From Candidatus Microgenomatus sp. (GTDB taxonomy: Bacteria > Patescibacteriota > Microgenomatia > UBA1400 > PJMF01), in assembly GCA_020724725.1 (NCBI GenBank), contig DYGL01000005.1, forward strand, positions 1 through 37,120: a DNA stretch of 37,120 bases, in the 5' to 3' direction. This document shows positions 7,551 through 35,634 of the stretch, one piece after another (positions within the stretch are counted from its first letter, which is position 1; each line of letters begins with the position of its first letter). The position numbers and the translations under genes were made by a program. Under the pieces are notes generated by a model. That model was given only the letters and a program-made list of their open reading frames with translations. It did not search any database and was not told where the DNA came from.

Positions 7551-7864
7551 TGGCTCCCCCGCGTGGACTCGAACCACGAACCTTGAAGTTACATGTAATC
7601 CTGATGTTTCCATCTGGCATGGACTATCTCATCACCATGTCGATTTGCGTCGAGTTAGGCGTCGGGCGCTTGGATCTGCTTGCGCAGACACGAGGTGTAA
7701 CCACCTAGTCTCTGAACCTTCCCTTGACTAAGTCAAGAGCTTGGCTGCGGATTCCCATACCAATTTGGCTTAGGCTTTCCGCAATTCACCCGATTTTCAT
7801 CTTAGCGTTTCCACTAAGAGCTGCACTTTTACAGCTTCCTGCTCTGCCATTGAGCTACAGGGGA
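7551..7864 (-). tRNA. tRNA-Asn(GUU) interrupted by a group I intron; CCA encoded
   Basis: 5' exon (7864-7831) TCCCCTGTAGCTCAATGGCAGAGCAGGAAGCTGT; 3' exon (7591-7551) TAACTTCAAGGTTCGTGGTTCGAGTCCACGCGGGGGAGCCA. Joined exons give acceptor, D-, anticodon (loop CTGTTAA) and T-arms, G73 and CCA; one mismatch (27-43) in anticodon stem. Confidence 0.92.
7592..7830 (-). ncRNA. Group I self-splicing intron (239 nt, IC3-like)
   Basis: P1 AGCUGU|aaaaguGCAGCU with U.G at the 5' splice site; P2 CUUAG/CUAAG; P4 UGCGG/CCGCA; P6 CUUGAC-UUA-GUCAAG; P7 'CAGAGACUA' with 'AGAUAGUCC'; P9-like GAUG-GAAA-CAUC; terminal omega-G (ACAUG). Confidence 0.92.
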
Positions 7865-7900
7865 TTGTTCACTTGTTAAAAACAGATGCAATTTTATCAA

Positions 7901-8578
7901 CTAATCTGACAAAATACCAGTCATAAAACCAATCATTTTTTCCTGCAAATCCTTACTATTAACAATTAATGAAAAAACACCATATTTATGAATATTTTTT
8001 CTTATTTTTTTTGAGTTTGGTTTATTTTTAACCACATAACTTTTAATAAAATTAGATTCTTTTATATCAAGCAACTTACTCCAAAATAATTTAGCCCTTT
8101 TCTCATCTAAGTCATCATGCAACCAAATCCTGCCATAAATTCTGCTTTTCTCTACATTTGCAAACTCCAATAACCAATTCATCATTAATTTTATAATTCT
8201 AGGGTCAGCATTAGAAAAACCAAATCTTTTATCAGTTTTATAACCATCGCCTAAATATAGGGCTATTCCAGCAACGAATCTTTCTCTTTTACTTATTTCT
8301 CCAAGTTCTTCCTTTGCTAAGATATGGATTTGTTTAGATTTCTCAGTACGTTTTTCTATTTTGTTTTTAGCAGCTATATGTGAACCAATTTTAGCTGATT
8401 TCTCTCTAATGCTGTTTAAGTTTTCTTTTTGAATTTTGCTTAATTCGATATCTCTACACCAGAGACTAAGTGTACTTTTTGAAACATTAACTATTTTTTG
8501 AATTTGAGAATAAGAAAGACCAGTTTTTCTTAGTTCAATTGCTTTAGCTTTTTCTTCTAGCTTGCCAAAATAACCCAT
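7901..8578 (-). CDS. HTH + LAGLIDADG-like putative homing endonuclease
   Basis: N-terminal HTH 'IELRKTGLSYSQIQKIVNVSKSTLSLWCRDI'; 'FVAGIALYLGDGYKTDKRFGFSNADPRIIKLMMNWL' resembles a LAGLIDADG helix, followed by 'LFWSKLLDIKESNF'. Confidence 0.68.
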   Translation of the reverse strand: MGYFGKLEEKAKAIELRKTGLSYSQIQKIVNVSKSTLSLWCRDIELSKIQKENLNSIREKSAKIGSHIAAKNKIEKRTEKSKQIHILAKEELGEISKRERFVAGIALYLGDGYKTDKRFGFSNADPRIIKLMMNWLLEFANVEKSRIYGRIWLHDDLDEKRAKLFWSKLLDIKESNFIKSYVVKNKPNSKKIRKNIHKYGVFSLIVNSKDLQEKMIGFMTGILSD

Positions 8579-8627: not shown

Positions 8628-9356
8628 TTAAACTCGTTCAATCTCTGCCACCACCGCCATGTGATCGCTAGTGTCAGGCAAAACTCGCACCTCATCAAGC
8701 AAATAATGAGGGCTAGTAAAAAGTGCATCAATCACCAAACGAATATCTTTGCCTGATTTATGCAGATTCTTATCAATCGTGGTATCAATTTCGGCAGGAA
8801 TATTATCAGTATACTTTTTGGCCAAATCATCCCAAATCTCATAACCTCTAGGGGTATTGAGATCACCACAGAAAATCATCTCATCAAACTGCTTCATGAA
8901 GCTGCTAAGCTCGAGATAATCGCGTCTTTGAGCGGCGTTGACTGCTCCTTCACCAGACCAAGTAAAATGCACGGTCAAAACTTGAAAATCCTGACCAGCC
9001 ACTTTCGCCTTAACTGCCAGAGCCACTCGATCGATCAAACTAGGATGATCATTGTCAAAGACCGCCAGCTTGCCATTTTCATGACCAAAATAATAGTGAT
9101 GTTTCTCTTCAATAATCTCATTGGCAAAAATCGCCACTCCCCAGGGACCGCGCAAAGGTAAATGGTCATTGGGTAAAGTAATGTCGGCTTGAGGATAAAA
9201 AGCAACTTGCGCAAGGCCAGTGGCTTGACGCAATTCTTCCAAATCACACTCAAAAACTTCTTGCAAAGCCACCACGTCAGCCTTTTCACGCTCTAAAAGA
9301 GGTAAAATTCGCACAAAGTGTCTATTACCTTCGATGTTGCAGGAGAGAAATTTCAT
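8628..9356 (-). CDS. Endonuclease/exonuclease/phosphatase family protein
   Basis: 'MKFLSCNIEG', 'DVVALQEVFE', 'IFCGDLNTP', 'TSDHMAVVAEI' are EEP motifs. Confidence 0.9.
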   Translation of the reverse strand: MKFLSCNIEGNRHFVRILPLLEREKADVVALQEVFECDLEELRQATGLAQVAFYPQADITLPNDHLPLRGPWGVAIFANEIIEEKHHYYFGHENGKLAVFDNDHPSLIDRVALAVKAKVAGQDFQVLTVHFTWSGEGAVNAAQRRDYLELSSFMKQFDEMIFCGDLNTPRGYEIWDDLAKKYTDNIPAEIDTTIDKNLHKSGKDIRLVIDALFTSPHYLLDEVRVLPDTSDHMAVVAEIERV

Positions 9357-32881: not shown

Positions 32882-34615
32882 TTACTCAAATTTATTTTTA
32901 ACCGAGTAGTTAGTATACAAGATTTTTTCTGCCAAAGAAGGCTCAGCTTTTGCAAAAGCTAAAAAATCTTTCACTACTTGATTTTCATGAGCTCGCCTAA
33001 CTTTCTTATTTGCATCTATTGTGTACAAGCCAGCAATTCTTTTTTTGATTGTTTCAATCGTTCCTTGGAGAGGTTGACCACCTCCACCAATACAACCGCC
33101 AGGACAAGCCATAAACTCAATATAATCATACTCCTCTAGACCACGTTTAATTTTTTCCAAAATATTGCGGGCATTGCGTGGAGTGGCGACCACAGCAACT
33201 TTGATTTCTTGCTCTCCTATTTTGATCGTAGCTTTTTTGATTCCCTTCATACCTCTCACTTCTTGCAAATCTACCTTTGGCAACTCTTGTCCAGTTAATA
33301 AATGGGCAGTGGTGCGCAAAGCTGACTCCATCACTCCTCCAGAAGCACCATAAATAGCTGCTGCCCCGCTATATTCACCTTCTAAATCTGCTTCGCTCTC
33401 TGGTAAATTGAGCAAATCAATTTGATGCTTTTTGAGTAAAGCGGCTGTTTCTCTGGTAGTTAACACCAAGTCAACAGGCTTCAACTTGTAACCTTGATAT
33501 TCAAAACTTAATTTTTCCATATCTGCTTCATATTTTTTGGATGTACAAGGCATTAGCGAAACTACCACGATACGACTTGGGTCAATTCCAGCTTTCTTGG
33601 CCCACCAAGTTTTGTAGGCCCCACCAGAATGAATGTGAGGTGAACGAGCCGTGGTTAAATGAGGAATCATCTCAGGATAGTAAAACTCCAAAAACTTCAC
33701 CCAACCAGGACAACATGAGGTAAACATGGGTAGCACTGACTTCTCACCAGCAAATTTTTGACGAAGTCGCTCACTCAATTCTTCCGCCTCAATCATAGTA
33801 GTAATATCAGCACCCATGTTGACATCAAAAATCTTGTCAAAACCTAAACGACGCAGAGCGGTAAACATCTTTTTTTCTAAATTTATACCAGCTTCCAAAC
33901 CAAACTCTTCACCAATGCTAGCTCGCACTGAAGGAGCCATTTGGACAATCACAATTTTTTCTGGATCAGCTAGAGCTGCTTCTACTTCAGTTAAATGGCT
34001 TTGCTCGCGAATTGCTCCAACCGGACAGCTCACTGTGCATTGACCGCAGTAAATACAATCTACCTTAGGATTCTGGCTATGAGTTAAATGAGCGTCGCTA
34101 GACTTCCCCTCCAGCTTCAAGAAGTTAATACCAATGTTGGCGCAAGCACTGACACATAATCCACAGCGTACACACAAATTAGGATCAAATTCCGCAGCGT
34201 TTGCCATTTTATGAACAGACAAATCTAGCATTTTGCGACGGTATTCCTCGCTGGTCACGCCATATTTTTTCATCAGACCGGCTACAGGACAGGGTAGCTT
34301 TTCTTGACACTTAGGACATTTTTCTCGATGTGAAGCTAGAATTAACTTCAAATTTTCTGTTCTAAGTTCACGAATTTCTGAGTCTCTAGTCTCAATGTGC
34401 AAACCTTCTCGCGCCTGAATTTCACACGAGCTCTCCACTTGACCATCATGTTTTACTAAACACAAGCGACAATTATGGTCGGCTGGCAAATCTGGATGAT
34501 GGCAAAGATGTGGAATGTCTATTTGATTGGCCAAGGCAATCTGTAATAAACTTTGACCCTCTTCTGCCTGATATAGCTGGCCGTCGATATAAACTGTAAC
34601 TGTTTTTGACATCAA
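32882..34615 (-). CDS. [FeFe]-hydrogenase catalytic subunit (NADH-linked type)
   Basis: H-cluster motifs L1 'TSCCPGW', L2 'MPCTSKKYE', L3 'EFMACPGGCIGGGGQP'; N-terminal [2Fe-2S] 'CHHPDLPADHNCRLCLV' and 2x[4Fe-4S] 'CVRCGLCVSAC', 'CIYCGQCTVSCP'. Confidence 0.96.
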   Translation of the reverse strand: MMSKTVTVYIDGQLYQAEEGQSLLQIALANQIDIPHLCHHPDLPADHNCRLCLVKHDGQVESSCEIQAREGLHIETRDSEIRELRTENLKLILASHREKCPKCQEKLPCPVAGLMKKYGVTSEEYRRKMLDLSVHKMANAAEFDPNLCVRCGLCVSACANIGINFLKLEGKSSDAHLTHSQNPKVDCIYCGQCTVSCPVGAIREQSHLTEVEAALADPEKIVIVQMAPSVRASIGEEFGLEAGINLEKKMFTALRRLGFDKIFDVNMGADITTMIEAEELSERLRQKFAGEKSVLPMFTSCCPGWVKFLEFYYPEMIPHLTTARSPHIHSGGAYKTWWAKKAGIDPSRIVVVSLMPCTSKKYEADMEKLSFEYQGYKLKPVDLVLTTRETAALLKKHQIDLLNLPESEADLEGEYSGAAAIYGASGGVMESALRTTAHLLTGQELPKVDLQEVRGMKGIKKATIKIGEQEIKVAVVATPRNARNILEKIKRGLEEYDYIEFMACPGGCIGGGGQPLQGTIETIKKRIAGLYTIDANKKVRRAHENQVVKDFLAFAKAEPSLAEKILYTNYSVKNKFE

Positions 34616-35634
34616 ACTTTAATTCCTAAAATATTGGCTGCATAACTTCTAACTGGCAAAGCAATTGATTTGCCTAAGTTGCAAAACGAGCCCTTATCCA
34701 TGATTTTAATGATCGGTGAAAACTTAGCCCATGGCAGTTCGCTTTTTTCATCTAAACCAGTTAATAACTGTAATAGTTGCCAAGAACCATCACGACAAGG
34801 GGAACATTTACCGCAACTTTCTCTCGTATAAAAGGCAAAGAGATTTTTCAAAAATGAATAGGGTGAAATTGTTTTTGGAAAAACTCTAATTGATCCACTT
34901 CCACTTAAAATGGCTGTCTCAGCTTGAACAGAGCTTAAAACTTCTCCAGCTGCACCACCACCCACCTGAACAAAAAAATCAAAATTTGGATAATTAGCAG
35001 TTTGGCGCAAAATCTCTGAGACATTCTGCTCGCTTTTAACTCGATAAACATCTGGTTTTGCTATGCCTTCACCACTAATTGTAGCCAAGCGAGTTTGCTC
35101 AAATTTATCAGACGAAACGCAAGCCACATCATAAAGAGTTTCCACATTGTGAAGGAGCACGGGCACACCAAAAATACCAAGCACTGAAGGGCTGGGATCT
35201 TTATAACGAGGCTGCACTTTTTTACCTTCAATAGAATTGAGTAACGCACCAGTTTCTCCACCAATGTAGCTTGGTTCTTCCAGAAAAAGATGAATCAGAT
35301 AACCTCTTTTTTGGCAGAATTCAATTAGAGAGTCAATTTTGACTTGTAAAGCCTGATAATATTTTTTATTGATATAAAAATATCCTTCTTTGGTTTCTAG
35401 AAAATCCATGGCCAAAAGCATACCTTTAAAAACCTCAGCTGGATAATTTTCTAAAAGAAAAAAGTCTTTACTTACGTCAGGCTCGCCTTCACTAGCATTA
35501 CAAACCACATACTTTTTGGGTTTGGCTAAATCTTTGATGCGACGCCATTTGCGGGCTACCGGAAAAGCCGCACCACCGCGTCCAACTAGATTGGCCTGTT
35601 CAATAGCTTGCAGCAAGTCATCTTTTAGGTGCAT
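34612..35634 (-). CDS. NuoF/HoxF-like NADH-binding flavoprotein, hydrogenase partner (HydB-like)
   Basis: 'GRGGAAFPVARKW', 'CNASEGEPDVSKD', 'GGETGALLNSIEGKK', 'ESCGKCSPCRDGSWQL', 'GSFCNLGKSIALPV'. Confidence 0.93.
   Translation of the reverse strand: MHLKDDLLQAIEQANLVGRGGAAFPVARKWRRIKDLAKPKKYVVCNASEGEPDVSKDFFLLENYPAEVFKGMLLAMDFLETKEGYFYINKKYYQALQVKIDSLIEFCQKRGYLIHLFLEEPSYIGGETGALLNSIEGKKVQPRYKDPSPSVLGIFGVPVLLHNVETLYDVACVSSDKFEQTRLATISGEGIAKPDVYRVKSEQNVSEILRQTANYPNFDFFVQVGGGAAGEVLSSVQAETAILSGSGSIRVFPKTISPYSFLKNLFAFYTRESCGKCSPCRDGSWQLLQLLTGLDEKSELPWAKFSPIIKIMDKGSFCNLGKSIALPVRSYAANILGIKV

Follow-up and report, generated by a model that had tools for sequence, protein, structure and literature searches.

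The window, i.e. the whole stretch of 37,120 nt of Candidatus Microgenomatus sp. analysed here, carries on its minus strand a tRNA-Asn(GUU) gene interrupted by a group I intron and, upstream of it, an open reading frame for a putative free-standing homing endonuclease, referred to below as the homing-endonuclease-like (HEG-like) gene. The latter was absent from the preliminary description of this DNA and is regarded here as the more informative half of the locus. The features are as follows.

7551-7864, minus strand: tRNA-Asn(GUU) gene as a whole, given by ARAGORN with introns allowed as c[7551,7864] (gtt) i(35,239)
7551-7553, minus strand: encoded CCA of the tRNA-Asn
7551..7591, minus strand: 3' exon of the tRNA-Asn (UAACUUC...G73), the exon proper being 7591-7554
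7592..7830, minus strand: group I intron of 239 nt between U35 and U36, final base G, identified by RF00028, covariation and empty-site alleles
7819..7824, minus strand: internal guide sequence GCAGCU, the 3' strand of P1, with GCAG invariant in 28 homologues
7831..7836, minus strand: 5' strand of P1, AGCUGU, whose last U is that of the splice-site U.G, with CUGU invariant in 28 homologues
7831..7864, minus strand: 5' exon of the tRNA-Asn, nt 1-35, ending in GGAAGCUGU, the same sequence in intronless same-genus alleles
7891..7899, minus strand: TGATAAAAT, the extended -10 element in the promoter of the tRNA gene, which follows the HEG stop by 2 nt and is kept in intronless relatives
7901..7927, minus strand: 3' end of the HEG frame, FMTGILSD and stop, which survives upstream of tRNA-Asn in HEG-less genomes of the same genus
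7901..8578, minus strand: upstream ORF of 225 aa (putative free-standing homing endonuclease), with an N-terminal HTH, a long helix and a C-terminal, probably LAGLIDADG-like domain (FVAGIALYLGDGYK)
8628..9356, minus strand: Exo_endo_phos gene, the syntenic upstream neighbour, used as locus marker in same-genus genomes

The preliminary description had placed a tRNA-Asn(GUU), with its anticodon split between U35 and U36, at 7551-7864, and ARAGORN returned exactly these coordinates, on the minus strand, and with the intron inserted behind gene nt 34, which is U35 in the standard numbering. It had also held that a good Asn tRNA is obtained once 239 nt are removed, and the joined exons (75 nt, with the exon-exon junction GGAAGCUGU-UAACUUCAAGG) do fold as tRNA-Asn(GUU), the anticodon stem containing a single mismatch. 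The gene was called neither by ARAGORN without introns nor by the Rfam tRNA model. A tRNA that forms only once a ribozyme has been spliced out goes unseen by standard tRNA callers, and the genomes concerned look devoid of tRNA-Asn. An intact second tRNA-Asn(GUU), which according to the preliminary description would make the present copy, if unexpressed, a pseudogene, was found neither by a DNA search of the genome carrying the window (G000; 715 kb in 41 contigs, 84% complete) nor among its 30 intact tRNAs, from which the GUU anticodon is absent. Given the lack of a further tRNA-Asn in the genome at 84% completeness, splicing of the sole copy detected should be essential.

A covariance search against Rfam, as had been advised, gave a match to RF00028 (Intron_gpI) at 7840-7600, with 87.9 bits (cmscan; E 2.5e-21; gathering score 50 bits) and covering the full model from 1 to 253. 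The group I hallmarks listed earlier are all present, the terminal G included, and the elements named in the intron are P1 (AGCUGU/GCAGCU, with its U.G), P2, P3, P4, P6/P6a, P7, P8 and a GAAA-capped P9. In an alignment of 28 homologous tRNA-Asn introns, built from sequence alone, the named structure is paired in 93.2% of the cells vs. 34-45% for slid controls, in which the partners were shifted by 1-3 columns; as the structure was read off the window intron, the slid control is mildly generous to it, which cannot account for the changes on both sides found in 36 of the 55 pairs. None of 500 shuffles reached any of the covariation measures. P2, P3, P4, P5, P6/P6a, P8 and P9 are covarying, while P7 is near-invariant and 99% paired; the U.G at the 5' splice site is found in 28/28 homologues, and a G stands directly before the UAA of the 3' exon in their alignment. 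At the level of sequence, the window element is confirmed as a group I intron in tRNA-Asn, and self-splicing is predicted. As for size and structure elsewhere, the tRNA-Asn introns of L101 and L107 are without P9, P7 running nearly straight into the 3' splice site, and that of L007 (G032:C17:4685-5306) measures 547 nt, with a big additional segment 5' of the core.

The G-A mismatch in the anticodon stem and one A-A mismatch in P9 of the window intron could be taken as signs of a tRNA pseudogene in decay, with a dead intron. We consider this extremely improbable, the P3/P7 catalytic core being intact, the RF00028 score being as given above and the gene being the only tRNA-Asn detected. The exons are moreover identical to the intronless gene of the same genus, so that the G-A mismatch is normal there.

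Concerning the distribution of the intron, group I matches of some kind were found in 61 of 113 relatives, and the tRNA-Asn intron at the same place in at least 18 of the 113, in a patchy manner. Among the best 29 relative loci, 18 have tRNA-Asn as host, with the intron at CTGT/TAA as read from the sequences (the slash marks the split), the remaining hosts being 16S rRNA, probably 23S rRNA, and a CAU tRNA resembling fMet. The latter defines a second class of tRNA introns (L018, L022, L024, L025, L026 and L028), with an apparent split GGCU/...G/CAUAAUC, i.e. 33/34, a site other than that of Asn. A second, weak group I match in G000 (L002, 21.8 bits) was rejected, as it falls in protein-coding sequence; the host labels Thr, Asp, His and Tyr given by ARAGORN -i were also rejected, the HEG-flanked loci reading CTGT...TAA, i.e. 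Asn.

The preliminary description had suggested that related genomes be searched for intron-plus and intron-minus alleles, and both kinds exist within the genus. In G002 and G005, the intronless tRNA-Asn is 100% identical to the window gene over nt 1-73 and occupies the same locus, beside the same Exo_endo_phos gene. The single-contig genome G003 has an intronless tRNA-Asn as well, and G004 has the intron, the upstream ORF being absent. The exons of G000 match those of G002 and G005, and the exons of G004 resemble those of G003, so that each intron sits in a tRNA of the local type. In the family to which the window belongs, the tRNA-Asn intron is present in some genera and missing in neighbouring ones. 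In the intron tree, the G000 and G004 introns as sisters were rejected (AU p 0.002), and the intron nearest to that of G000 is the one of G091, from another family, with 76% identity. The pattern fits independent gains of the intron at one site, as judged from a tree in which many forks are weak. Empty, intron-only and HEG-plus-intron alleles within one genus make a cycle of invasion and loss directly testable.

An Asn host had been described as uncommon. This stands when the comparison is made with the classical bacterial hosts of tRNA group I introns, namely cyanobacterial Leu(UAA) and fMet, Azoarcus Ile and Acidovorax/Burkholderia Ile2 (PMC8450103, PMC4033280), and does not stand for Patescibacteria, where host and site recur widely. 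Like the bacterial tRNA group I introns already known, that of the window is compact and ORF-less, lies in the anticodon loop, has a U.G 5' splice site and matches RF00028 over its full length; it differs by its tRNA-Asn host, split within the anticodon at 35/36. For most of the bacterial and plastid cases on record, the position given is 37/38 (PMC4033280). Group I introns in CPR tRNAs were noted during genome circularisation (PMC8172020), and the title of a 2025 preprint by Nakagawa, Amikura, Omae and Suzuki (bioRxiv 10.1101/2025.07.03.662931; cited in PMC12641178) announces that tRNA genes of Patescibacteria have group I introns at a novel insertion site. Going by this title, their introns share the phylum and a tRNA host with the window intron, and the preprint may already cover the 35/36 site. 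Taken alone, the tRNA-Asn intron is a further member of a type already reported for Patescibacteria tRNA genes.

The upstream ORF (7901-8578) ends 36 nt before the start of the tRNA-Asn, on the same strand. Pfam recognises only an HTH in it; no LAGLIDADG match to Pfam was obtained among 16 family members and 6 distant relatives, and a search for sequence relatives in PDB found none past weak HTH matches. A conserved motif is F-[IVL]-[AT]-G-x-x-x-Y-x-x-[DE]-G-x-K. The AF2 model has a pLDDT of 89, for the whole protein and the C-terminal domain alike, and the order of elements in this domain is helix-strand-strand-helix-strand-(helix)-strand-strand-helix, the motif helix ending in the acidic D111. 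In Foldseek, OmpA-like domains came at the top but superposed poorly (TM ~0.40-0.44, rmsd ~7-8 A); an OmpA-like identity, returned for the full-length and the C-terminal queries, was treated as noise on account of the low TM. The LAGLIDADG enzyme I-DmoI was found at rank 50 (E 0.057, prob 0.96), short of significance. Judging from the model, the C-terminal domain probably resembles a LAGLIDADG domain. Because Foldseek gives no proof of a LAGLIDADG fold, the product is named HEG-like only, and we infer its nuclease activity.

The N-terminal HTH as sole recognised domain and, in many members, the overlap of the gene end with the promoter or the 5' end of the tRNA would also suit a non-nuclease DNA-binding regulator, or a processing factor, of the overlapped tRNA gene. 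We regard such a role as improbable in the face of the conserved acidic motif at the helix end and the LAGLIDADG-like topology, and also of the optional presence of the gene within the genus, the many isotypes flanked and the scar remaining after loss, which are presented below.

In the 113 relatives, the five best protein homologues, including that of the window, all lie directly 5' of an intron-containing tRNA-Asn and on the same strand. A scan of GTDB (one genome per species) with the protein alignment as query gave 16 loci, from Daviesbacteria, Shapirobacteria, Roizmanbacteria, Chisholmbacteria, Berkelbacteria, Portnoybacteria and others. The members of the Asn subfamily are in 15/15 cases directly 5' of tRNA-Asn and on the same strand, and in 14/15 cases the CTGT/TAA intron is present (11 above the Rfam cut-off, and L102, L105 and L110 by sequence reading and alignment). 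At these 14 of the 15 subfamily loci, the HEG is recurrently next to, and not inside, the intron-containing gene. At L113:3681-3753, an Asn-subfamily HEG ends within an intronless tRNA-Asn, possibly a HEG-first stage. At the level of the relatives, the tRNA-Asn intron is found in 7/7 cases with HEG vs. 12/39 without HEG (Fisher p 0.0009, kinship ignored), and 12 of 71 family matches are within 400 bp of an intron, vs. 0.08 expected. Numerous tRNA-Asn introns have no HEG nearby. An apparent HEG link of the CAU-tRNA (fMet-like) introns in four relatives is not treated here as an alliance of its own, since in at least one of them (L161) the neighbour downstream of the HEG itself is an intact tRNA-Met. 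At L103:3697-3830, the stretch that separates the HEG from the intact intron-containing tRNA-Asn includes a partial second 5' half of this tRNA.

A co-inheritance of HEG and intron was expected and was not found: over 15 paired loci, HEG and intron distances show no correlation (Mantel r 0.03, p 0.39), and L101 and L103, with HEGs 80% identical, have introns in separate parts of the intron tree. The pair is thus not moving simply as one block, and the two sequence histories suggest reshuffling. Strict co-transfer is therefore not claimed, and the locus is said to work like collaborative homing, without being filed as such. Uncorrelated distances would also be expected if the self-splicing intron were real and the upstream ORF an unrelated free-standing HEG homing only into the tRNA 5' flank, the link to the intron being incidental and both elements favouring tRNA-Asn. 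L113 agrees with this, as do the family members of other isotypes, which sit 5' of intronless tRNAs; the frequency of the intron at Asn-subfamily HEGs, and the contrast between relatives with and without HEG, argue against it, and we hold an incidental link to be unlikely, though a serious contender.

Concerning the end of the HEG, the extended -10 (TGnTAnAAT) is placed 18-27 nt upstream of the tRNA. For this element, a score >=13.5 was found in 9 of 16 HEG loci vs. 1.7% by shuffling, and in six loci where a good -10 is present (score >=12), it falls within the HEG end or straddles it. The HEG-less alleles of the genus retain leftover codons, each run closed by a stop: FMTGILSD in G003, FLAGILSD in G002, FLAGILAN in G005 and SSGILSD in G004. 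A C-terminal G-x-x-x-G motif is common to distant homologues at other tRNAs, and because it recurs there, we read these codons as the apparent scar of HEG loss; the scar would have been kept because it carries the upstream promoter region of the tRNA. The opposite order, in which the promoter sequence is the older and the HEG came to lie on it, is less likely.

As for the wider family, a same-strand tRNA starts at -31 to +52 nt from the HEG stop in 51 of 60 further matches (one of the 51, L125, being a doubtful tRNA call), the chance of such a placement being ~0.2% per match. At least 13 isotypes are flanked, namely Trp, Met, Ile(UAU), Gly, Arg, Ala, Thr, Gln, Val, Tyr, Lys, Pro and Ser. In many members among L116-L175, the HEG frame is closed by the UAG of tRNA nt 8-10 (U8-A9-G10). 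Within the genus, G007 has a HEG-family gene before tRNA-Trp, and G000 has none there, with the same divergent neighbour gene. From this placement, the family docks on tRNA genes, the Asn clade being the one tied to an intron. A search of phage and plasmid records found no homologues, and viral contigs gave one distant homologue, L176:594-1339 (IMG/VR), directly after tRNA-Glu. No paper on a tRNA-docking HEG family was found in a literature coverage that is incomplete. A broader proposition would be that of a chromosomal HTH + LAGLIDADG-like family established on tRNA 5' ends across Patescibacteria, with a clade per isotype and genes ending in the tRNA or its promoter, in which the Asn clade has entered a loose and more than once reshuffled alliance with independent anticodon introns serving as immunity; the chances for and against it appear to us evenly balanced.

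For the window locus, the reading that we prefer, with a probability of roughly 0.7, is that the self-splicing tRNA-Asn intron and the upstream HEG-like gene act in collaborative homing, the gene belonging to a chromosomal endonuclease family that docks on tRNA genes; in this reading, splicing in vivo, nuclease activity, target and collaboration are predicted. In the folding transcript, the GCAG of the intron guide would pair with the CUGU of the 5' exon, the attack of guanosine would fall 3' of the U in the U.G pair, and ligation of the exons would give CUGUUAA, with the anticodon GUU. The Asn-subfamily HEG-like protein would most likely cut the intronless tRNA-Asn, the intron hiding the target site in the carrier, and repair of the break would spread HEG, promoter, 5' exon and intron jointly. 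Recombination in the conserved 34-nt 5' exon would reshuffle HEG vs. intron, and later reshuffling or loss of the pair would leave an intronless tRNA with a short HEG scar.

Collaborative homing has been described for the cyanophage F-CphI, beside the intron-containing psbA (PMC6083498), and noted in other phages (PMC10448857). As in the F-CphI/psbA case, a free-standing endonuclease gene adjoins an intron-containing host gene, and the intron would block self-cleavage; the window pair differs in being chromosomal, in uncultured bacteria, at a tRNA gene and with an HTH + LAGLIDADG-like protein, whose cleavage is predicted. The SegB gene of phage T4 is also a free-standing homing gene linked to tRNA genes, but SegB is a GIY-YIG enzyme of a phage with a tRNA intergenic target (PMC2988022), whereas the window family is HTH + LAGLIDADG-like and, in Patescibacteria, adjoins the 5' ends of tRNAs of many isotypes. 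With the CPR rRNA introns that carry LAGLIDADG genes, e.g. I-ShaI (PMC11270868), the locus shares group I introns, a putative LAGLIDADG-type mobility and the phylum; in the I-ShaI type, however, the HEG is inside the rRNA insertion and has a Pfam LAGLIDADG match, whereas that of the window is outside the intron, has an HTH and no such match. What is new is the HEG-like family beside the tRNA-Asn, with its docking on tRNA genes and its loose association with the intron; these would make the locus a variant of collaborative homing, with cleavage predicted. The family offers a testable explanation for the spread of small ORF-less tRNA introns between lineages of Patescibacteria and, if the preferred reading is true, collaborative homing, described for phages in the papers cited above, extends to bacterial chromosomes, where tRNA genes would be the contested sites.

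Elsewhere in the window, at 32882-35634, ORFs resembling an iron-only hydrogenase subunit and a NuoF-like partner were observed, as judged from the translations.
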